A stretch of 21,801 bases of DNA from a virus. Position numbers and translations under genes: made by a program. The notes below the pieces were generated by a model. That model saw only the letters and a program-made list of their open reading frames with translations, made no database searches and was not told the origin of the DNA. The stretch lies in the IMG/VR virus record IMGVR_UViG_3300032217_000064, positions 1-21,801 of that record. One strand, given 5' to 3'. Below, one piece after another: positions 3,714-21,770 of the stretch; within the stretch, counting starts at the first letter, position 1, and every line of letters starts with the position of its first letter.

Positions 3714-4820
3714 TCATTGGGTTGTCCAATCCTTAGACGTTCCGCTTACAGATGTCCAAGGGTTAGTGTTGTCGGAAATTATAGTCCAGCTACCTGTATT
3801 TTGGGACTGCGTAGTCCAGGACGTAGTTGATGTACCAGAGTCTGTCCATGTTTCTGGTTCTATTGGCTCTGGCTCCCACAACAGGCGCTGCGTGATGTAG
3901 TCCAATGCGCTTGCAGTCTCTGCTATCTGCGCGACAAATTGCAATCCAGACAGATAACTGTCACTGATTGAGTAGATATCTGAAATGTCTACATTGAAAA
4001 TTGCAATGTTGTCAAATGCATCAGATGCTGCAAGAGTCTCAGATATAGCAGATAGGAATGAACCTACAGCTACATTAATATCACTAGCCGTTACAGTTTC
4101 AGCCCTATCAACCTGGTAAGAAAATATTGGTACTACTGAATCGGATGCTGATAGTGCTTCAGCAATTGCAGATGAAAGACTTAGTCCTCCAACAATAACA
4201 TCTTGCGCTGACAATGCATCCGATGCAATTGCAACTGCTTGCAATACATTTGTTACAGCATCAGCCGCAGTAAGTGAGTCCGATGTTATTACAGGTATTG
4301 TTAGGACACATACTTGAGAATCTGATGCAGTTCCTGTTTCAGATGCCAGCGCAAGGAAAACAATCGTGCTAGTCTGTGAACTTGTAGCAGATCCAGTTTC
4401 TACTGCAAATGCTACTGCTGTCAGAACTGATAACTGACTATCAGATGCTGATCCTGCTTCAGATAGGACAGCTATCGCGCTGAGTGTATTTGTGTTGGCA
4501 TCAGCAGATGATCCTGTTTCTGACGCGCTTGCCAGTGCTGTTAGGATATTGGTCTCTGAATCAGATGCTGAACCTGATTCATTTGTTTCTGCAACTGCCG
4601 TGAGAATATTTGTCTCAGTCTCTGATGCCGAACCAGCTTCAGCCAAAGATTGGCTGTATGCAAAGCCACCAAGCAAACTGTCTAACGAACCGTATCCATA
4701 GACTCCAGAACCGTATTGGTTGGAACCATACCCACCCTCAATGACTGTTACGTCATATGTGAAATTTGATATTGCAAGCGAACTAAATGGCGCTTCACTG
4801 AATGCTGCAATACCAAACAT
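3714..4820 (-). CDS. Virion protein with thirteen 20-residue repeats and five Trp decapeptides
   Basis: A 368-residue protein. Residues 1-60 form a head with YGSNQYGSGVYGYGSLDSLL. Residues 61-320 are thirteen gap-free 20-residue repeats: an acidic residue sits at position 1 of every unit (61, 81, ... 301), an Asp/Glu at position 7 in twelve of thirteen units, and a mostly hydrophobic residue near position 13 (for example E-AGSAS-E-TETNILTAVA). Residues 325-368 hold tryptophans exactly ten residues apart (325, 335, 345, 355, 365), each followed by Thr. This looks like an elongated solenoid-like or fibrous virion part, perhaps a fibre shaft. I know no function. It sits between a small tail-region gene and a fibre gene, with AGGTG close to its ATG. 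Confidence 0.75.
   Translation of the reverse strand: MFGIAAFSEAPFSSLAISNFTYDVTVIEGGYGSNQYGSGVYGYGSLDSLLGGFAYSQSLAEAGSASETETNILTAVAETNESGSASDSETNILTALASASETGSSADANTNTLSAIAVLSEAGSASDSQLSVLTAVAFAVETGSATSSQTSTIVFLALASETGTASDSQVCVLTIPVITSDSLTAADAVTNVLQAVAIASDALSAQDVIVGGLSLSSAIAEALSASDSVVPIFSYQVDRAETVTASDINVAVGSFLSAISETLAASDAFDNIAIFNVDISDIYSISDSYLSGLQFVAQIAETASALDYITQRLLWEPEPIEPETWTDSGTSTTSWTTQSQNTGSWTIISDNTNPWTSVSGTSKDWTTQ
3717..3848 (-). repeat. Coding repeat of Trp decapeptides, 30-bp period
   Basis: Four complete 10-residue units and a fifth partial one start with Trp-Thr (WTDSGTSTTS, WTTQSQNTGS, WTIISDNTNP, WTSVSGTSKD, WTTQ). The tryptophan spacing is exactly ten, half the period of the preceding array. 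It forms the very C-terminus of the protein. Confidence 0.75.
3861..4640 (-). repeat. Coding tandem repeat, 13 x 60 bp
   Basis: Thirteen in-frame 60-bp units encode the 20-residue repeats. The units near the 5' end of the gene (about 4440-4640) are still similar in DNA, with recurring blocks such as TCAGATGCTGA on the plus strand. The units near the 3' end keep only the acidic and hydrophobic positions. That gradient suggests recent duplications at the 5' side and older, drifted copies at the 3' side. Confidence 0.8.
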
Positions 4821-7621: not shown

Positions 7622-8242
7622 TTAACCGAAAGACCTTGCGCGTGACTTCAATACGCCACCACTGGTAGCGCCACGCTCATCTGCAATTTGCAGTTCCTCA
7701 ATGCCAGTTTTGTACAGGCCAGCCCACACTTGAATCCTTGCGTCATCCTGTAGGTATGGTGCAGCTTGCAATAAAGAACCGTACAGGTACACGTCAGGCG
7801 CTTTAGTGAGCAGCCAGTTGGTGGTGTTGGAGTCATACAGCTTGCTGAGTTTTGCGTAGTAGATCAACTCGCCCGTGTAGCTAGAGTCTGGGATTGGGAC
7901 AACGCGAATCTGCGACCCGATAACGCCAAAGAATTTAGGTTTCCCGCTGGATGTGTATGTTGTCAGCAAGTTATCCAGGCTGTCAATGGTCTCAAACTGC
8001 AATGGAGTTACGGGGTTGGTGTCCAGCTTAAACGTCCGCGCCTCCAGGAAGTCGCCTGGCGTTGCGTTGTACTCTGCATCAATGGTGGCCGTGGCGCGAG
8101 TAATCATCTGGGTGGTTCGCAGAGTGCGCTCCATCTGCGCTTCAGCCAGAGAGACAAAGTCGGTGATGGCAGACGTGAGATCGCTACGGTTGAGCCAGTC
8201 GGCGACCGAGGCTTTCAGTTCAGCGTAGGTGCTAAGTGCCAT
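7622..8242 (-). CDS. Head-tail adaptor, P22 gp4/phage-adaptor-like
   Basis: A 206-residue protein beginning MALSTYAELKASVADWLNRS, then DFVSLAEAQMERTLRT, LPSD-like loop ATPGDFLEARTFKLDTN, DSLDNLLTTYTSSGKPKFFG, IRVVPIPDSSYTGELIYYAK, and helices ending QIADERGATSGG. The helix-strand-helix layout, the WLNR start, the F....G..I...P.P...Y...YY.K core and length match gp4-like adaptors that ring the portal of short-tailed phages. Position after portal and capsid genes agrees. It overlaps the glycosyltransferase gene by 11 bp. Confidence 0.75.
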   Translation of the reverse strand: MALSTYAELKASVADWLNRSDLTSAITDFVSLAEAQMERTLRTTQMITRATATIDAEYNATPGDFLEARTFKLDTNPVTPLQFETIDSLDNLLTTYTSSGKPKFFGVIGSQIRVVPIPDSSYTGELIYYAKLSKLYDSNTTNWLLTKAPDVYLYGSLLQAAPYLQDDARIQVWAGLYKTGIEELQIADERGATSGGVLKSRARSFG

Positions 8243-8897
8243 GCTCTGCCTTTTCCTTCTCGATGTCGCGCATCATCCAGGTGTGGTCGTGCTTGAATTC
8301 AAACGTACCGATGTGGCCAATCTCTTTGCTCACATCGTGGTCTATATAGATTTTATACCCTTCCGCCTGCGCTTTACGGCAGAAGAAAATGTCTTCTCCA
8401 ATGTAGCCGCGCTTGTCGTGACGCCAGGGAGTCTCAAACCAAGGCTCTGTCAGCTTCTCAAAGACGTTACGCTTAATCAGCATCACGCCCATGCCAATGC
8501 TGCCAACTTCCTCAATGCCGGTAGATTCCGGCATGGTGTAGATCAGTTCGCGCTCACCATCAGAACCATACTTCTGTGCAGTCGGTCCTGTAGGAATACG
8601 CCGGCGTGCGCAGTTGGTAGCCACAATGTCTAGATCGTTCTTGAGCAGGCGCTCAACCATGTCTTGGGGAAACGTCATGTCAGAGTCGATAAACAGGATA
8701 TGCGTGCATCCTTCTCGCATCGCATCCAGCGCCAGATCAGCACGCTGGTTCTGTATCAGCGTACCCTGCATGATCTTAAGAGACACCGCGTCTGTCGTGT
8801 TCAGCGTGTGGTAGCAGACCATATTCACCAAGCAATAGGTGAAATTGGCGTGAACCATGTCACGGGCTGGCGTGCAGACTGCAATGTAGTTATTCAT
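8232..8897 (-). CDS. Glycosyltransferase, GT-A (family 2-like)
   Basis: A 221-residue protein. The N-terminus MNNYIAVCTPARDMVHANFT leads to QNQRADLALDAMREGCTHIL, then the metal-binding D71-S-D73 (ILFIDSDMTFPQDM), followed by ATNCARRRIP, GSIGMGVMLIKRNVFEKL and the acidic acceptor-side block GYIGEDIFFCRKAQAEGY. These are the ordered elements of a GT-A fold: nucleotide-sugar end, DxD, and ED catalytic base region. It probably transfers a sugar to a virion protein, a host glycan or modified DNA. Its place between the capsid and adaptor genes favours a virion target, which is inference. It overlaps the upstream gene by 4 bp (ATGA). Confidence 0.8.
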   Translation of the reverse strand: MNNYIAVCTPARDMVHANFTYCLVNMVCYHTLNTTDAVSLKIMQGTLIQNQRADLALDAMREGCTHILFIDSDMTFPQDMVERLLKNDLDIVATNCARRRIPTGPTAQKYGSDGERELIYTMPESTGIEEVGSIGMGVMLIKRNVFEKLTEPWFETPWRHDKRGYIGEDIFFCRKAQAEGYKIYIDHDVSKEIGHIGTFEFKHDHTWMMRDIEKEKAEHGT

Positions 8898-11426: not shown

Positions 11427-13543
11427 GCCATTCCAGGTTGGTTGATGGTTGCCTCTCGATTCATACTGGTCACAGCTTGAATCTCAGCGTTGCTAATTTG
11501 AGCGTTGTACTTTAATTCTATTTCATATTTCTTGAGAAGTCCATTCTGGGCTAACTCATCACGTCGGAAATCATCATCTCTAATCATCTGGTCGCGTTTT
11601 AATTCCAACTCAGCTGCCTTTTTCTGAATATCTGCCTCAATGGATTTTGCCTGCACCTCAGCTAATACTTCCTCTGGTGTGGGTTTGGGAGGTGGTGGCG
11701 CTGGCGGCTGGTAATCAGATGGAATATCGTTAAAGAACTGGCTAGAGTCCTTAAATCCGCTGAGTTCCACAATCTTGCGCAGGGTGCTTGCGTACATTGA
11801 TGGAGTAACCAATGGGTTCTGTGGTCCGAGTTGCGTCAGAGCCTCCTGCTGCTTTCCGCTAATCATCATCAAAGCCTGTAGACGTTCGTTGGTGTCTCCA
11901 TTACCCAAGCCAATGTTGATACTTACGTCCATGTTAGCGTTCCAGGCGCGGGGATCAATCTCCACAAACTTATCGCGCAGGCGAATCATGCGGGGCTTGT
12001 CCTGGTGCGTCACTATCAGGAACAGGATTCCTTTAAACAGCTTCTTCATGCCCTCTGCCATCATCCGCGCCGTGAGTTCAATGCGGCCCTGGGACGCGCT
12101 GATGGTGGCGGCCACAGCTGCCTTGGTGCTGGACTGCAACGCGTCAGCATTTAAGCCCATTGCGGCCTTGCTCATGCCGGTGCGGTCCTCTTTTATCTGG
12201 TCGATGTAGTCCAGCATCGGGAACGCGGCCTGCCCGACAAACGGGCTGGAAAACGGCTGTACCATGCCAGGCGCACGCATACGAATGATGGCTCCGGTCT
12301 CATTGTTCAGCACGTCATCCATGTTGACCTGGCCCTCAACCACCGCAGTGCGCGGGTGGATGGACTGCGCCAGGGAGTCCAGCGTGTTACGCAGGATCTC
12401 GGACTTGATCTCTTGGATATCGTGCGTGATGTCGAAAATGGACATCGCTTCAATAGGGCTAGTGTGTGGCTCTGGGTCGCAAGGGAAGTCTACAAACGGA
12501 ATGTAGGACGCAGGCAAATTACGCACAACCTTGTAATCTGGACCCATGCAGCAGATCTTGCGCAATTCTGGGATGCCATCACCATCGTAGTCGATGCGCT
12601 CATACGCCTCGATGTACAGAACGCGAAACTGCATAGGGTTATTACTGTCTGTCTGACCTAATCCAGTTGATAGTGGTTGACGTACCAAATACTCCATATT
12701 TTGGGATAGGTCATTAGCCGTAACATAATCCTGCACCTCATCCTCGTCGTATCCCATCGCTACCAGTTCTGCAACAGTCGCCATCTTGCGGTGCGCAATC
12801 AGGCTGCAATCCTCAAATGACCGCGCTTGTCGGTCAATTAGCAATTCCTCCGGTGGCACTGCCATGATTTTGATGCGCCCGTCTTTGGTAACGCGCTTGA
12901 TTTGCACATCGTGCAACATTGGGACTGGTGGAATAGGCATCATCTGACCCATTGCGTCCATTTGTGGCTGCATTGGTGGTGCGTCTGGGTCTGGGTACGA
13001 AACCACAATCTTTACTTCAGCGTGTTCCTGCATCAGCACTTGCAGGGTTTGGTCATCCAGGCCGCTAAAGTCTGTAATCTCAACCTTTTCTGAATCCTCC
13101 CACCAGAATTTCGCAACTCCGCACTTACGGACCAGCGAATCCTTGAAGATTGCATAGGTAGTCATAAAACCGTTGTTATCACGGTTGAATACAAAATTCG
13201 CGTAGTCGGTGGCCTGCTTGGCGTGCTCCACATCTGCCGGCGTCTCTGGGACATACTCGACGGTATTCTCGCTGGAGAAAAATACCCGCATCAAGCTGGG
13301 CATCATGGCCGATACGGTGTCACGCACCTCCATCGCCACTACTTGGGAGCGCCCCTCTTCTTCATTTCCAAAGTTATCGCCTCGATAATATGACGTGCCT
13401 TTCGCCCGTACAGGCGAAATATCCATATCGATATAACTTATGGCATCAGAAAGATCTTGCCCGATGATCGCTTCCAGTTCGGTATCATCCATCGGCTCCT
13501 GTGCGGCCACGTCGGTGGTCACTGGCATATCGTTCATATTCAT
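11423..13543 (-). CDS. Portal protein, P22-like
   Basis: A 706-residue protein, close to the size of P22 gp1 (725). Early residues hold SPVRAKGTSYYRGDNFGNEE and GRSQVVAMEVRDTVSAMMPS, followed by LMRVFFSSENTVEYVP, the wing region with MAVPPEELLIDRQARSFEDC, SYIPFVDFPCDPEPHTSP, the stem/clip region DITHDIQEIKSEILRNTLDS, and MSKAAMGLNADALQSSTKAA. The last 120 residues are a charged coiled coil (barrel-like) with a proline-rich hinge PPAPPPPKPTPEE before it. It would form the twelve-subunit DNA channel at the head vertex and dock the terminase. The length and the missing head-protease motifs favour a podovirus-type portal. The start overlaps the methyltransferase stop by 4 bp. Confidence 0.9.
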   Translation of the reverse strand: MNMNDMPVTTDVAAQEPMDDTELEAIIGQDLSDAISYIDMDISPVRAKGTSYYRGDNFGNEEEGRSQVVAMEVRDTVSAMMPSLMRVFFSSENTVEYVPETPADVEHAKQATDYANFVFNRDNNGFMTTYAIFKDSLVRKCGVAKFWWEDSEKVEITDFSGLDDQTLQVLMQEHAEVKIVVSYPDPDAPPMQPQMDAMGQMMPIPPVPMLHDVQIKRVTKDGRIKIMAVPPEELLIDRQARSFEDCSLIAHRKMATVAELVAMGYDEDEVQDYVTANDLSQNMEYLVRQPLSTGLGQTDSNNPMQFRVLYIEAYERIDYDGDGIPELRKICCMGPDYKVVRNLPASYIPFVDFPCDPEPHTSPIEAMSIFDITHDIQEIKSEILRNTLDSLAQSIHPRTAVVEGQVNMDDVLNNETGAIIRMRAPGMVQPFSSPFVGQAAFPMLDYIDQIKEDRTGMSKAAMGLNADALQSSTKAAVAATISASQGRIELTARMMAEGMKKLFKGILFLIVTHQDKPRMIRLRDKFVEIDPRAWNANMDVSINIGLGNGDTNERLQALMMISGKQQEALTQLGPQNPLVTPSMYASTLRKIVELSGFKDSSQFFNDIPSDYQPPAPPPPKPTPEEVLAEVQAKSIEADIQKKAAELELKRDQMIRDDDFRRDELAQNGLLKKYEIELKYNAQISNAEIQAVTSMNREATINQPGMA

Positions 13544-14076
13544 ACTGGTATCTTTCGTAGTACGACGTACATGGAGTCCACCGCCCGAGGCGTGCGTAAC
13601 AATTCGTCTTGTTCCAATTCTAGGGTCTTCCCATACTCTGAGAGACGGTAATCCAAATGGGTCATCTCAAACCGGTAATCTTTCCAGCCTAAGTACCAGT
13701 GCCAGGCGCAGTAGTACACCCATGAGTTTTCATTGAATGCTCTGACGTGCGTCGGATCCTGCCACGCTCCCAGACCCAACTCGTAAGGCACAACAATGTG
13801 CATCTCACCGCCAATCGCCAGCAGATCTCGGCAGTTAGTCATTGCCTGGACTAGATTCGGGATATGCTCCAAAACATCAAAGGCAATGATGCGCTCAAAG
13901 CCCCCGCGTTTGATTGGGACATAGTTATTCTTCCAGCGGACTATCCCACCAATGTGGACATCAGAGATATCCATAACCCAATCAGCACCAACATCTGGAC
14001 GGATGTCCGCGTTGATGGCGTCATCCTTGTAATCCCTTCCTGACCCAAGGTTAAGAGTTAAACCAGCATTGGACAT
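13540..14076 (-). CDS. Class I SAM-dependent methyltransferase
   Basis: A 178-residue protein. Motif I is LTLNLGSGRDYKDDAINADI (residues 7-25, SAM pocket), then VGADWVMDISD (adenine side) and the post-motif FERIIAFDVLEHIPNLVQAM (FDVLEHI at 66-72), followed by GGEMHIVVPYELGLGAWQDP. These are ordered as in Methyltransf_11-type enzymes. HTHVRAF-like DPTHVRAFNENSW is typical of sugar- or small-molecule-directed members. The substrate is unknown; the adjacent glycosyltransferase suggests methylation of a glycan. It overlaps that gene by 26 bp and the portal by 4 bp. Confidence 0.85.
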   Translation of the reverse strand: MSNAGLTLNLGSGRDYKDDAINADIRPDVGADWVMDISDVHIGGIVRWKNNYVPIKRGGFERIIAFDVLEHIPNLVQAMTNCRDLLAIGGEMHIVVPYELGLGAWQDPTHVRAFNENSWVYYCAWHWYLGWKDYRFEMTHLDYRLSEYGKTLELEQDELLRTPRAVDSMYVVLRKIPV

Positions 14077-14743
14077 ATTTGGGTCTATTTTTCATTAGCC
14101 AGGGCATCGCCTGGTTTGTCAACATCTCAGCGTTCACGCCAACAGTCTGGCTCCCAACGTGGTGGACATAGGATGCGCTCACATAATTCTCGTACCCAAG
14201 TTCCTCTAGGTCCGTGCATTGCACGTCATCTGAGTACCAGTTCAGTGGTGGGAATGGGCATTTAGAAAAGGCATCTGCACAGATCCAGGCAAATATGGGC
14301 GAGATGACATCAGAACGCCGAATCTTGGATTCGGACGTGAATCTGCACATATCTATGGCCTCTCCTTCCGGATTCCAGCGAATATTCTGCACTGCACGCG
14401 CAGAGTCGCACCTGGAGGCCACCCATCCAGGATTCAGACTCAGGCTCCTAACAATGTCAACGTCCTCCAGCAAAACCTTGTAGCTGGTAGGTGTCAGGAC
14501 AATATCGTCATTTGCCACCACCACTGAGTCGAAATCCTTGAGTGCGCAGTTAATGATGTCGTTGTAGTCTTCGCCAAAGTTACGGGGCTGGCCAATCATC
14601 TTCACGTCTGCATTGAATCGCTCCAGCACCGACGCAGGCCCACGCAAGTACACGGGTATCTCTGGACAGTATTCGCGTATAGACGCCAGCATCACCGCCA
14701 GGTTATTACCGTGGACGGTGCTGATGGCAATTGGTGCTATCAC
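14051..14743 (-). CDS. Glycosyltransferase-like protein (GT-A)
   Basis: A 230-residue protein starting with GTG at 14743, overlapping the upstream stop (GTGA). The N-terminus APIAISTVHGNNLAVMLASI, then PRNFGEDYNDIINCALKDF and FDSVVVANDDIVLTPTSYKV (N78-D79-D80 in place of DxD) give a GT-A pattern. Later blocks are FAWICADAFSKCPFPPLNWY and the acidic YSDDVQCTDLEELGY, as in glycosyltransferases that act on phage or surface glycans. The donor and acceptor cannot be read. The neighbouring methyltransferase suggests a joint glycan-modifying step. The assignment is less certain than for the 8232-8897 gene because the metal motif is degenerate. Confidence 0.7.
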   Translation of the reverse strand: MIAPIAISTVHGNNLAVMLASIREYCPEIPVYLRGPASVLERFNADVKMIGQPRNFGEDYNDIINCALKDFDSVVVANDDIVLTPTSYKVLLEDVDIVRSLSLNPGWVASRCDSARAVQNIRWNPEGEAIDMCRFTSESKIRRSDVISPIFAWICADAFSKCPFPPLNWYSDDVQCTDLEELGYENYVSASYVHHVGSQTVGVNAEMLTNQAMPWLMKNRPKYVQCWFNS

Positions 14744-18074: not shown

Positions 18075-18154
18075 TAGACGGCCCTCCAAGCGCGTTTAGC
18101 TGGTGCAAGCACTCCACATATCACCTCGTCACATAAATCACGCTGTACGCTCAT
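18074..18154 (-). CDS. Possible 26-residue ORF coupled to terS
   Basis: ATG at 18154 with AAAGGG six bases upstream, inside the end of the 215-residue gene, and TAA overlapping the terS ATG (TAATG). It would encode MSVQRDLCDEVICGVLAPAK followed by RAWRAV. The ribosome site, both overlaps and lack of a gap are consistent with a leader peptide or minigene that couples terS translation. With 27 codons, chance is a real alternative, and I do not recognise the product. Confidence 0.3.
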   Translation of the reverse strand: MSVQRDLCDEVICGVLAPAKRAWRAV

Positions 18155-18785
18155 TTCTTGCCCTTTCTGCTGCACTTGTATCAAACAACTTGCCGCCCTT
18201 GAATGGTTTGCTGATGTCGATATCGTTTTTCATGTCCTCAAACCCGCTAGATCCTTCAGTCTGAATAGGAATCATTCTCATTCCAGGTATAGCCGCCTTG
18301 ATTTCGCGTACCTGAATCAGCGTCTTATTGTTCATAACCACCTCCAGTTCCTCGAGTGTCCAGATTGAGCGTGCGCCTGGCTCTTTCCTAAACTGCTCGT
18401 ACCAGATTCTGTCTTTCTCCTGCCTGACAACCACCAGCAAACTCCCATCTTGCATCCTATGCTCCATGCAATCGATTTTAGGCATCTGCTCTAGCCCTAC
18501 CCCTTCAGCCCACCGCGTCAACGCCTTATAGGCCGCTACAAGCCCCTTGCTGGCTCGTTCTAACCTTTCTTCGTCCCGCGCCTGCACGGCTTCCGCAATC
18601 CGTTCCCGCTGCGCGGCAAACTTGCGCCTAAATTCTGCGTCCACCAATTCAAGCACCCGCCCAATCCCGTAAACCTTTTCATGTTCCAGCTTTGCTAGTT
18701 CAACGTCCACCGCCAACGCCTGATTCCAAACCTTAAACGGGTCGGATGGATAAACGTCAGTCTCCAACAATTTCTTTGATGCCAT
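18138..18785 (-). CDS. Hypothetical protein, 215 residues, mostly helical
   Basis: It starts at ATG 18785 with AAGGA six bases upstream. The first 100 residues are helical and charged: DVELAKLEHEKVYGIGRVLE, LVDAEFRRKFAAQRERIAEA, ASKGLVAAYKALTRWAEGVG. A mixed segment follows: CMEHRMQDGSLLVVVRQEKD, RSIWTLEELEVVMNNKTLIQ, and a C-terminal charged tail with DISKPFKGGKLFDTSAAERA. There are no zinc or membrane motifs. It lies after a repeat array and before the small terminase, so a replication, recombination or packaging role is possible. I do not recognise the family. One repeat copy ends 8 bp ahead of its Shine-Dalgarno region, so repeats might control it. Confidence 0.7.
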   Translation of the reverse strand: MASKKLLETDVYPSDPFKVWNQALAVDVELAKLEHEKVYGIGRVLELVDAEFRRKFAAQRERIAEAVQARDEERLERASKGLVAAYKALTRWAEGVGLEQMPKIDCMEHRMQDGSLLVVVRQEKDRIWYEQFRKEPGARSIWTLEELEVVMNNKTLIQVREIKAAIPGMRMIPIQTEGSSGFEDMKNDIDISKPFKGGKLFDTSAAERARNERTA

Positions 18786-18798
18786 CTTTAATCCTTAC

Positions 18799-19023
18799 AT
18801 AGCCGACTTCAAACATAGCCAACTTCCAAAATCCCGAGATAGCCGACTAGCCGACTTCATATTGCATTAAGCAATATTATGCAAGTCGGCTATCCGACCA
18901 CCTATTTCTGGCCGACTTCACGATAGCCAGCTTGCCACGATTTTACAAGTCGGCTATGTTTTACAAACAAAAGTACATAGCCAGCTTGCCACGATTTAAT
19001 AGCCAACTTCACAAGTCGGCTAT
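18799..19023. repeat. Array of eleven 12-bp motif copies in both orientations
   Basis: Variants of ATAGCCGACTTC occur in the plus sense at 18799, 18815, 18839 (truncated), 18848, 18910 (partial), 18923, 18977 and 18999, and as CAAGTCGGCTAT in the reverse sense at 18882, 18946 and 19012. Core variants are CGACTT, CAACTT and CAGCTT. A 21-bp direct repeat (18923-18943 = 18977-18997) contains two of them. Opposed copies form hairpins: TAGCCGACTT/AAGTCGGCTA around an inner ATATTGC/GCAATAT palindrome (18848-18892), and 18999-19023 with a three-base loop, overlapping the primase stop. No ORF is present. This could be an origin with iterons, an operator cluster or a structured RNA. Confidence 0.85.
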
Positions 19024-21086
19024 CAGAAAGGTGCGACAAACGGCTCATCTTTATCCTTATCGGGGTAGATTACCCAGCAATATTCCGCTACATCAGTCTT
19101 GTGATAGCCCACCAATTCCTTGGCGAACATAGATTTCTTGCCCTTATAAAAGTCGGTGTTGATGCTGCTACTGTCACCCTTCAGCTTCACAAATTCCTCT
19201 TTCCACTCGTTCACGGTTACCGTCTTATGGCGCTCATTCCCTACATTTGTCATATGCCCATTCTTCTCAATCGCCTTGTGGATGGCGTTGAGCGCCACTT
19301 GCTGGTTCTCTTGTAGCTTGCGTGGCTTCTCTTGATGGCTGACTGCTTGGGTCTGCATCTGCTGCTGGATAGCCTCATCACTGGCTCTGACAGCCAGGCT
19401 AATCTGTGCGTCTGCCAAGCCTAATGTTCCAGTCTGAATCTCCACCTTCACCATCTCGAACCCTATCTTCAGCCCGTCCTGGCCGTCCTTCTGCTTGCTA
19501 ATAGTAAGGATGCCGCTGCCAGCTATTGGGCTGGACGGGTTAGGCGTAGCGTCAACCTTCATCAGTTCTAGTTGCGTGTCCACGGCACCTAGCAGGCTGC
19601 TATGTCCCCGCAATCCTTTGGTGGCATCCTTACCAGAGTGATGCAGCACCATCATGGCGCAGTTCAACATCCGCTGAATCCGTCCTGCGTTGTGGATAAA
19701 CGCTCCCATGTCCTCCGAGTTGTTCTCATTGCCACCGCCAAACGCTCTGGCTAACGTGTCAATCTGGACTAACTCAAACTGGACACCTGTACGCTCCACC
19801 AAATCCTTGATGGATAGCACCAGCAAATCAAAGTCCTCCGCACTCGATCTTAGGTTAATGGCTGCCCTGATAACGTATATCTCAGCACCAGCTTGCGTTG
19901 CGTTGTGCATCTTGCAGGCTTTGATGCGTGCGCCGATGCCGCCAAAGCCTTCGCCTGCTATATACAAGACTGCGCCGGCGGCTTGCACTTCCCGACCCAT
20001 CCACGTCCTGCCCGTTGCAACCGCCTCGGCAATGTCCAGCGCAACAAATGACTTGTAGCTACCTGGCGGGCCGTATAAGGCGGCAAATGCCTTCTTCGGC
20101 AGCACATTCTCAATCAACCACTCTACTGGCTCATCCTCAATCGAGTCCCACGGCTCAATGTTGAGTAGCTGGCGCGGGACTAGGATGGGTGATTCTTCCT
20201 CGGGTAGCGCCTGCACTTCCTCAATCGTTTCCCGTGGAACAATCCACTCTGGTGTTACCACCTGGTCAACGCTAGTGATAACGGGTAATGCCTTAGCTAA
20301 CTCTGCCAGCTTTGCCCTATCCCCGCCATCCGCTACCCACTCATAGGCATCGTCACCAAGTTCGGGTAAATTTAAATCAAGCACTCGGATTGCCTTGGCT
20401 ACAGGCAGCAGCGCCTCCACCACCCGCTTGGCGTACTTCCAGCCTGGTGCATCGCAATCAGGTACCACTATCACAACAGCATCGGAGAAGTATTGGGTAA
20501 TGTCTGCCGGCCAGTGACCGGCGCCAGCGTGACTAGTAGTGGCAATCGCACCTATGCTAACCAAAGCATCCGCTGCCTTCTCTCCCTCCACCAGATAGAT
20601 TGCGCGGCCAGCTTCCCGTGCGTTAATGAGTTCCGGCAGGCGGTAAGGCACTATCCGCGCCCCTGTCATGCTGCCCTTGCGGTTGCCAGCGGCATCCACC
20701 TTATGCAAGCTGTATGTCTTGCCCTTCTCAGTGTTGGTCTTGAACCGGCGCTTTACGAACAGCGTCTCGCCCGACTCATCCTTGTACTCCCATTCCTGCT
20801 CCAGCGTTGGCATAGTCATCAATTCACCTTTGATAAGCGCGAGACTGTACTCCTGCCGCTGGATGGATGGCAAGAGGTTGCGTTCCCGTACAGCGTCAAA
20901 TACAGACCCCTGATCGCAACCACCGTGGCAGTGAAACAGGTATTTGCCATCCGATTCCTTGATGGATAGGCTAGGATTCTTGTCCCCGTTACCACGTCCA
21001 TGCCCAGGCACAGGGCAGCTTGCAACCCAGTTCCCATTCACCTTCTTGGCGTTGCCTAGGGCTTTGGCTATTGTTTCTGTGTCCAT
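19023..21086 (-). CDS. Primase-helicase (CHCC zinc finger, Toprim, RepA-like AAA ATPase)
   Basis: A 687-residue replication protein. The zinc ligands are C24-x4-H29 (CPVPGH) and C53-x3-C57 (CHGGC). A Toprim domain has VEGEK (166-170) and the acidic D210-C-D212. The C-terminal ATPase has Walker A GPPGSYKS (339-346), a FELVQIDTLARAF Walker B region (D443) and the RepA-type VLHHSGKDATKGLRGHSSLL (480-499). It probably unwinds phage DNA and makes primers, like T7 gp4 in outline. CAGGAG eight bases upstream fixes the start. A second in-frame ATG (codon 90, 20819) follows AAAGGTG at good spacing and would make a form without the zinc finger. The stop touches the repeat array. An extra C-terminal region (about 590-687) is unassigned. 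Confidence 0.88.
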   Translation of the reverse strand: MDTETIAKALGNAKKVNGNWVASCPVPGHGRGNGDKNPSLSIKESDGKYLFHCHGGCDQGSVFDAVRERNLLPSIQRQEYSLALIKGELMTMPTLEQEWEYKDESGETLFVKRRFKTNTEKGKTYSLHKVDAAGNRKGSMTGARIVPYRLPELINAREAGRAIYLVEGEKAADALVSIGAIATTSHAGAGHWPADITQYFSDAVVIVVPDCDAPGWKYAKRVVEALLPVAKAIRVLDLNLPELGDDAYEWVADGGDRAKLAELAKALPVITSVDQVVTPEWIVPRETIEEVQALPEEESPILVPRQLLNIEPWDSIEDEPVEWLIENVLPKKAFAALYGPPGSYKSFVALDIAEAVATGRTWMGREVQAAGAVLYIAGEGFGGIGARIKACKMHNATQAGAEIYVIRAAINLRSSAEDFDLLVLSIKDLVERTGVQFELVQIDTLARAFGGGNENNSEDMGAFIHNAGRIQRMLNCAMMVLHHSGKDATKGLRGHSSLLGAVDTQLELMKVDATPNPSSPIAGSGILTISKQKDGQDGLKIGFEMVKVEIQTGTLGLADAQISLAVRASDEAIQQQMQTQAVSHQEKPRKLQENQQVALNAIHKAIEKNGHMTNVGNERHKTVTVNEWKEEFVKLKGDSSSINTDFYKGKKSMFAKELVGYHKTDVAEYCWVIYPDKDKDEPFVAPF

Positions 21087-21089
21087 TAT

Positions 21090-21770
21090 TTAAACTCCTG
21101 CTGAGAGGATTCGCCAAGCTGTTGCGGCGCACAATGGGACTTGTCCATTTCCAATGGCTTTAAGTCTGTCCACCCTGGCGGCCACCCCATCAGCCACTCG
21201 TAATGATTCGGGGTAATCTTTCCAAAAACCTTTAACCAATTCCGGCATCCAGCGTGCTTCTGCATTGAGGGCGCACAAAAGTTCGCCATCGTTGTCGGAG
21301 TATGCAAATAACCAATATCGCTCCCGAATATGGTCTGCACCCATGTCTGCCGCTGAAAGTTGAAGTGCTTTGGTTTTGTAACCCATCGATTCACAATCGT
21401 CTGCCGCTTGGTCAATTGCCACTCTGCTGACGTTTTCGGCAAAAACGTACCTGGGAGCGACATCTGCCACAATTCTCCGCATCTCTGGCCAAAGGTCGTC
21501 CGCTGTATTTTTTCCAGCCGCTGCGGTGGAATAGGCTTGGCATGGAAACCCGCCAGATACAACGTCAACAATTCCTCGCCACGGCTTCCCGTCAAAGGTT
21601 TGTACGTCATCCCATATCGGGAAAGTTTTGAGAAGCCCATCATTTTGTCGGGCGCACAATACGCTTGCTGGGTATGGCTCCCACTCAACGGCGCAGACTG
21701 TTCGCCATCCAAGAAGTTTTCCCCCAAGTATTCCACCACCAGCGCCTGCGAATAAAGCCAACTCATTCAT
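21090..21770 (-). CDS. DNA cytosine-5 methyltransferase, compact
   Basis: A 226-residue enzyme. Motif I is LFAGAGGGILGGKLLGW (6-22), motif IV is VSGGFPCQAYS with catalytic Cys77, motif VI is AENVSRVAI (E112-N-V114), motif VIII is HIRERYWLFAYSD (R149-E-R151) and motif X is LKAIGNGQVP (GNG 208-210). The region between VIII and X, where target recognition sits, is only about 45 residues. It would methylate cytosines at unknown sites, probably to protect phage DNA from restriction; no partner nuclease is visible. The frame stays open upstream to the window edge, so the ATG at 21770 could be internal, and its Shine-Dalgarno is weak (GAG). Confidence 0.88.
   Translation of the reverse strand: MNELALFAGAGGGILGGKLLGWRTVCAVEWEPYPASVLCARQNDGLLKTFPIWDDVQTFDGKPWRGIVDVVSGGFPCQAYSTAAAGKNTADDLWPEMRRIVADVAPRYVFAENVSRVAIDQAADDCESMGYKTKALQLSAADMGADHIRERYWLFAYSDNDGELLCALNAEARWMPELVKGFWKDYPESLRVADGVAARVDRLKAIGNGQVPLCAATAWRILSAGV

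Follow-up and report, generated by a model that had tools for sequence, protein, structure and literature searches.

A repeat array behind a phage primase-helicase gene, with a repeat word that co-varies with the C-terminal domain of the protein: a likely iteron-type replication origin

The origins of most environmental phages are unknown, and the nearest described counterparts of the locus reported here come from satellites, plasmids and phage P4. In the SaPI replicons, the C-terminal domain of the Rep protein reads iterons that lie directly 3' of the Rep gene (PMC7581432). The RSF1010 origin combines iterons with hairpins, the alpha protein of P4 unites a primase, a helicase and a winged helix that binds origin repeats in one polypeptide, and in pRN1, a stem-loop directly downstream of the gene for a primase-helicase-winged-helix protein is required for replication (PMC4234260 for all three). 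In the PLE of V. cholerae, the DNA-binding domain of RepA co-varies with the origin, replication is limited to cognate pairs, and swaps of this module escape an origin-directed, origin-cutting nuclease of ICP1 (PMC8263062).

The DNA analysed here (the window) is a virus record of 21,801 bases, in which the main genes all lie on the minus strand and a repeat array separates a primase-helicase gene (19023-21086) from a 215-codon gene (18138-18785). This array is likely to be an iteron-type replication origin that is recognised by the C-terminal domain of the primase-helicase itself, carries an apical hairpin and is exchanged as a cassette; binding and origin activity are inferred, there being no binding or replication data.

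The SaPI/PICI replicons are alike in that the gene of the initiator helicase is followed at once, on its 3' side, by an iteron origin, and in C-terminal specificity (PMC7581432, PMC6092414), but the window phage is complete, with terminase and structural genes, and is not a satellite that needs a helper phage for its particles. Its helicase is of the RecA-fold, RSF1010-RepA-like kind, not DUF927 or D5/Primase_Cterm (AAA_25 is the only Pfam match to the primase-helicase), and its array holds a nested hairpin. The SaPI/PICI layout has two iteron sets on either side of an AT-rich region; in the window, iterons lie on both sides of the AT-rich inner hairpin (18859-18877) but are spread out and in mixed orientation. 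Given the complete phage genes and the different helicase family, a PICI identity was rejected for the window phage. The oriV of RSF1010 (IncQ) shares a RepA-related helicase (E 4e-8) and the presence of iterons and hairpins in one origin (PMC4234260), but RSF1010 employs a separate iteron binder, RepC, and a separate primase, RepB', whereas the window protein appears to fuse primase, helicase and reader. P4 alpha is, likewise, a single polypeptide with primase, helicase and winged helix that has origin repeats (binding is inferred for the window protein); unlike in P4, the single repeat region of the window abuts the gene. The P4 alpha helicase belongs to another superfamily than the window helicase. 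The PLE system is similar in that its iterons co-vary with a DNA-binding domain and the two can be swapped as one module, but it belongs to a satellite, its RepA_N-type initiator has an N-terminal binding domain, and it comprises two module classes, compared with 25 or more words here. pRN1, finally, resembles the window in its stem-loop behind a primase-helicase-winged-helix gene but has an archaeo-eukaryotic primase, an SF3 helicase and no iterons. On the preferred reading, the locus belongs to a familiar kind of system, in which an iteron origin is paired with its own swappable reader domain, here with an unusually large number of specificities. No description of the arrangement was found in the open-access literature searched, and a prior description elsewhere is possible; the genome paper on the cultured phage CRP-811, discussed below, mentions neither an origin of replication nor repeats (PMC12629253).

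The repeat array and its hairpins

The word ATAGCCRRCTT occurs in 225 bp in eight exact and three near copies, eight of the 11 in one sense and three in the other. The exact copies (18799-19023; five on the plus and three on the minus strand) compare with a chance expectation of 0.04 for the whole window, and eight were never reached in any dinucleotide shuffle. Allowing one mismatch adds copies at 18839-18849 and 18847-18857, and a copy with two mismatches, CTGGCCGACTT, was read from the sequence at 18908-18918 on the plus strand. The word is found nowhere else in the window, and the array meets the expectation for an iteron origin of several short repeats of one word at one locus. The features are as follows.

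19023-21086, minus strand: 687-aa primase-helicase (Pfam AAA_25), its helicase part a relative of RSF1010 RepA (PDB 1g8y)
18138-18785, minus strand: 215-aa gene, function unknown, without co-variation with the repeat word
18799-19023, minus strand: iteron array, 11 copies of AAGYYGGCTAT (gene-sense reading) in mixed orientation; proposed replication origin; position common to all near relatives, sole locus with the word
19013-19023, minus strand: iteron copy, exact; shares one base with the primase stop codon (19023-19025)
18999-19009, plus strand: iteron copy, exact
18977-18987, plus strand: iteron copy, exact
18947-18957, minus strand: iteron copy, exact
18923-18933, plus strand: iteron copy, exact
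18908-18918, plus strand: iteron copy, two mismatches
18883-18893, minus strand: iteron copy, exact
18847-18857, plus strand: iteron copy, one mismatch
18839-18849, plus strand: iteron copy, one mismatch
18815-18825, plus strand: iteron copy, exact
18799-18809, plus strand: iteron copy, exact; separated from the 215-codon gene by 13 bp
18999-19023, no strand: hairpin 1 at the primase stop, formed by opposed copies; 11-base arms, loop of 3
18946-18988, no strand: hairpin 2, formed by opposed copies; arms 18946-18959 and 18975-18988
18838-18894, no strand: nested palindrome; opposed iterons 18838-18851 and 18881-18894 enclose an inner stem-loop at 18859-18877 (ATATTGC-ATTAA-GCAATAT)

A preliminary description, made from the sequence alone, had counted 11 copies (eight and three by sense) in 225 bp, with one overlapping the primase stop, another just ahead of the 215-residue gene, and opposed copies making at least three hairpins, one of them nested around ATATTGC/GCAATAT. 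All of these claims held, but only eight of the copies match ATAGCCRRCTT exactly.

Repeat words and the C-terminal domain in freshwater relatives and beyond

Searching with the primase-helicase as query yielded 80 viral loci. In eight near-complete relatives of 30-43 kb, the word is restricted to the array, and each of the near relatives with downstream sequence has a gap of ~220-240 bp that holds an array at the identical place. The density of the array word is 36-186 per kb inside the array, compared with 0-0.5 per kb elsewhere in the same loci, with the sole exception of locus L046. The word itself differs between relatives, and within one array all copies change together. The types are A (AAGTCGGCTAT, the word of the window), B (AAGTTGACTAT/ATAGGCAACTT), B2 (ATGGTCAACTT), B3 (AAGTTGGGTAT), B4 (CTAGGCAACTT), C (CTACGCAACT), D (GTATGCAACTGCATAC and GTATGTAATTACATAC) and E (CGTATAGTTTTATATACG), and relatives at about 50% identity carry very different words (GGTAACAAAC, GGGGACAAATGG, GTGACGAATCG). 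The arrays of the near relatives share the layout of inverted repeats, the main ones holding their position through the replacements of the word. The existence of the array, its uniqueness, its conserved position and layout and the concerted replacement of its word are thus shown directly. The 145 arrays collected in all fall into at least 25 word clusters; no DNA similarity of the array to phage records was found.

The exception, L046, carries at 11967-12061, at a contig end, a second copy of the array in reverse complement, together with the 215-aa and methylase genes, and is probably an assembly chimera of two strains. Four other contigs (L018, L021, L037 and L048) stop inside the array or at its edge, which raises the possibility that the inverted repeats break metagenomic assembly.

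The inner stem-loop, TTGC-TTAAT-GCAA, lies outside the repeat word and is kept in 50 near-group arrays, in which several stem positions are altered on both sides with retention of pairing, and G-U pairs are almost absent. Because these compensatory changes preserve the pairing, the hairpin itself is probably under selection, as extruded or single-stranded DNA or as RNA, an inference that rests on sequence data only. Across the stems, G-T mismatches outnumber those of the A-C kind (107 vs 22), but this excess was set aside as evidence since it mostly reflects changes inherited inside one repeat type.

The change of the word is followed by one part of one protein. In an alignment of the primase-helicases of 58 relatives, residues 1-520 differ little whatever the word (mostly 0.85-1.00 identity to the window protein, with somewhat more variation in the small B4 group). 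Identity drops with the word over residues 600-687; for residues 641-680, it is 0.92 in proteins with the same word, 0.74 for B, 0.57 for C, 0.39 for E and 0.27-0.28 for D. When array distances were compared with protein distances in 51 loci, the correlation was 0.15-0.24 for residues 1-560 and 0.65-0.72 for residues 561-687; in 20-residue windows, it rises from 0.11 at 541-560 through 0.48 at 561-580 to 0.6-0.7 at 581-680. The 215-aa protein yields 0.11 in the same loci and no more than 0.18 in any 20-residue window, and the terminase subunits show no correlation with the array (TerS, r 0.01; TerL, r -0.02). On the tree of the C-terminal domain, nine changes of word type suffice (the minimum for nine types is eight), compared with 18 on the tree of residues 1-560, 22 on that of the 215-aa protein and about 31 after shuffling. 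In the near group, co-variation is therefore restricted to the last ~125 residues of the primase-helicase, i.e. the predicted linker and winged helix. As array and domain are adjacent, part of this signal could be plain linkage; simple linkage does not account for the co-variation because the 215-aa gene, equally close to the array, lacks it. For the same lack of co-variation, the 215-aa protein was rejected as the partner of the array. The expectation that origin repeats be matched to a cognate initiator is met, by co-variation only.

Sequence pairs tell the same story at close range. In the freshwater loci L039 and L020, DNA identity is 0.91 in the core, 0.71 in the C-domain, 0.51 in the array and 0.94 downstream, and the near-identical natural pair L194 and L201 differs in the word (CGTACCA vs CGTAACA).

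By sequence, the helicase domain is related to RSF1010 RepA (PDB 1g8y, E 4e-8, residues 323-492). For the C-terminal domain, AlphaFold2, given an alignment of this domain, confidently predicts a winged helix (pLDDT mostly >90 over residues about 590-670), in which residues 642-655 would form the recognition helix and 659-672 the wing.

19068-19319, minus strand: C-terminal domain with winged helix (residues about 590-673), which co-varies with the word and is proposed to read the iterons
19122-19163, minus strand: residues 642-655, the recognition helix of this domain as predicted by AlphaFold2; contains type-linked positions

The full-length model was poor (mean pLDDT 62) and was used solely for its agreement on the C-terminal domain. 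Structural alignment of this domain reaches Z scores of up to 10 against winged helices, including those of origin recognition complexes; Foldseek alone found no match with E below 0.001, and Pfam no family, only sub-threshold chance hits. Several of the positions that best predict the word (643, 644, 647, 648 and 652) lie in the predicted recognition helix, and others are scattered over the domain. A shared winged-helix fold does not, by itself, demonstrate function.

The same design recurs in cultured phages of marine Roseobacter. CRP-811 and CRP-823 have ten ACTACAAA sites, all in the gap behind the RepA-like helicase; of the eight TGTATAAA sites of CRP-831, seven fall in the equivalent gap, which carries the same AAACCCTTTAGGGTTT hairpin. 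The DNA of CRP-823 and CRP-831 has an identity of 0.96 in the helicase core, falling to 0.73 in the C-terminal domain and 0.57 in the array and returning to 0.91 downstream. The CRP-811 helicase, used as a query, retrieved a marine phage family, an independent repetition of the array design, in which most arrays have the lineage's own word in high copy. Because in this family as a whole, which is more divergent, the word is also correlated with the core (r 0.45-0.66), the marine argument rests on close pairs: where cores are at least 90% identical, the C-domains are 89% identical if the word is shared (55 pairs) and 73% if it is not (16 pairs). In Rhizobium phage RHph_N65, nine of the ten genomic GGCGGAGAT sites lie in an array behind the helicase, between the 3' ends of two converging genes, and arrays of a similar make, apical hairpin included, occur at loci in the bacterial genomes of Hydrogenophaga and Pseudovibrio. 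Not every phage with a RepA-like helicase follows the design: in Mycobacterium phage Ariel and in CRP-406, the helicase gene is followed by no gap and no array was seen directly there, nor was one seen directly behind the helicase of MW202711.

The apical hairpins of unrelated lineages, L136, L139 (CRP-811, CRP-831), L103 and L127, have a GC-rich stem and a TA-containing apex (CCCTTTAGGG, CCCGTAGGG). By analogy, this combination may recall a priming or single-strand initiation signal.

The origin reading and its rivals

In the proposed mechanism, the C-terminal winged helix would bind the repeated half-sites (general form AAGTTG-NN-TAx in the freshwater group, AAGYYGGCTAT in the window), and several bound copies would seat the ring of the RepA-like helicase on its own origin. 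Once the strands had opened, the nested hairpin would be exposed or extruded, and the fused primase would prime there, possibly at the exposed hairpin. Because one domain would read all the copies, word and domain must change together and be replaced as a unit. Binding, strand opening, priming at the hairpin and origin activity are all inferred. Against the origin reading, there is no clear AT-rich stretch for unwinding that exceeds the inner hairpin in length. In six relatives, cumulative GC skew is strongest near the array but has no extreme or sign change there, in what is a weak test given that the genes run one way.

The preliminary description had proposed an iteron origin beside a RepA-like helicase, a proposal now supported by the unique locus, its conserved place and the co-variation of the C-terminal winged helix, with origin activity still inferred; the GC-skew minimum that it suggested looking for is absent from the array and lends no support. 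Two findings that it held would refute an origin, copies scattered all over the genome and no repeats at the same place in relatives, were not seen: the word has a single locus in eight relatives, and an array is present in every near relative. As for its alternatives, operator sites are weakened by the array of RHph_N65, a structured RNA has lost support (no Rfam match; composition control), and a mobile hairpin repeat fails on distribution.

The main rival, although an unlikely one, is an operator cluster, on which the winged helix would repress or activate the 215-aa and terminase genes, or autoregulate, without any origin function. In its favour, the array precedes the 215-aa and terminase genes, one copy lies near a start codon, and co-variation demonstrates a matched reader and site, not the effect of binding. 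Against it, the RHph_N65 array, lying between converging 3' ends, serves no downstream promoter; a promoter and terminator scan of the array region gave matches at chance level only, the promoter-like ones on the other strand; the word has no copies upstream of the replication genes; and a DNA-reading domain fused to a primase-helicase suits an initiator better.

There is little to recommend a structured non-coding RNA transcribed from the minus strand, perhaps regulatory between the replication and packaging genes. For it speak the very stable predicted minus-strand fold of the window array (-108.6 kcal/mol, z -9.3), with 13 G-U pairs compared with none on the other strand, and the compensatory maintenance of the inner stem. 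Before composition control, minus-strand folds are far more stable than plus-strand ones, but with shuffled controls, the sense-minus-antisense difference has a mean z of -0.11 for the 11 freshwater arrays and of 0.37 for the 18 marine ones; across repeat types, the excess is in general a composition effect. Only type A keeps extra minus-strand, i.e. sense-strand, stability beyond composition (z about -3 to -4), which the DNA-element model does not explain. The preliminary observation that G/A variants still pair as G-U in minus-strand RNA is accordingly true of the window phage but does not generalise to other repeat types. Moreover, Rfam has no match for the array, the inner stem is nearly devoid of G-U pairs, and an RNA has no need for one shared, changing word tied to a DNA-binding-type fold. 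A DNA element is preferred because the strand difference is mostly composition and Rfam gives no match.

Less probable still is a packaging site (cos or pac) read by the terminase, for which speaks the position of the array, two genes ahead of TerS and TerL (the small and large subunits). The distances of neither TerS nor TerL follow the array, whereas those of the primase-helicase C-domain do (about 0.7), and the contigs of relatives are circular maps opened at differing places; lacking TerS co-variation, a cos/pac identity was rejected. A mobile or self-amplifying hairpin repeat without phage function, conceivable since hairpin-bearing repeats can be mobile elements, is all but ruled out by the one locus in eight relatives, the layout kept across unrelated words and the co-variation with a protein domain.

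If the iteron-origin reading is correct, seeking an iteron array directly behind a RepA-like primase-helicase would locate the origins of many uncultured and cultured phages. Replication origins would be places where phages diversify rapidly and in matched fashion, as is known for the PLE satellites, and the near-identical pairs with different words (CRP-823 and CRP-831; L194 and L201) make initiator-origin specificity directly testable. A bolder reading has three parts, which, taken jointly, we are inclined to doubt somewhat more than to accept: that these phages form a widespread replicon class with at least 25 distinct origin specificities generated by swaps of the winged helix and iteron cassette; that the swaps perhaps escape origin-directed nucleases, satellites or competing phages with the same origin; and that the apical hairpin, with its compensatory changes and usually TA-containing apex, is a single-strand priming site for the fused primase. 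Were it true, the natural pairs of domain and word would amount to a readable protein-DNA recognition code.

Other genes of the window

Behind the array of almost every near relative, the 215-aa protein keeps to a narrow range of lengths (214-219 aa); it matches no Pfam or PHROG family. The window also encodes TerS and TerL, along with ORFs that read as portal and capsid genes. Of two overlapping 226-codon ORFs in different minus-strand frames at 21086-21770, one is the C5-cytosine methylase (Pfam DNA_methylase), and the other is probably spurious. Amid the structural genes, ORFs at 13540-14743 and 8232-8897 look, by eye from their translations alone, like glycosyltransferases and a SAM-dependent methyltransferase. 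A 368-aa ORF at 3714-4820 is rich in imperfect ETGSASDSQTNxLxAVA repeats and may be a tail fibre or surface protein.
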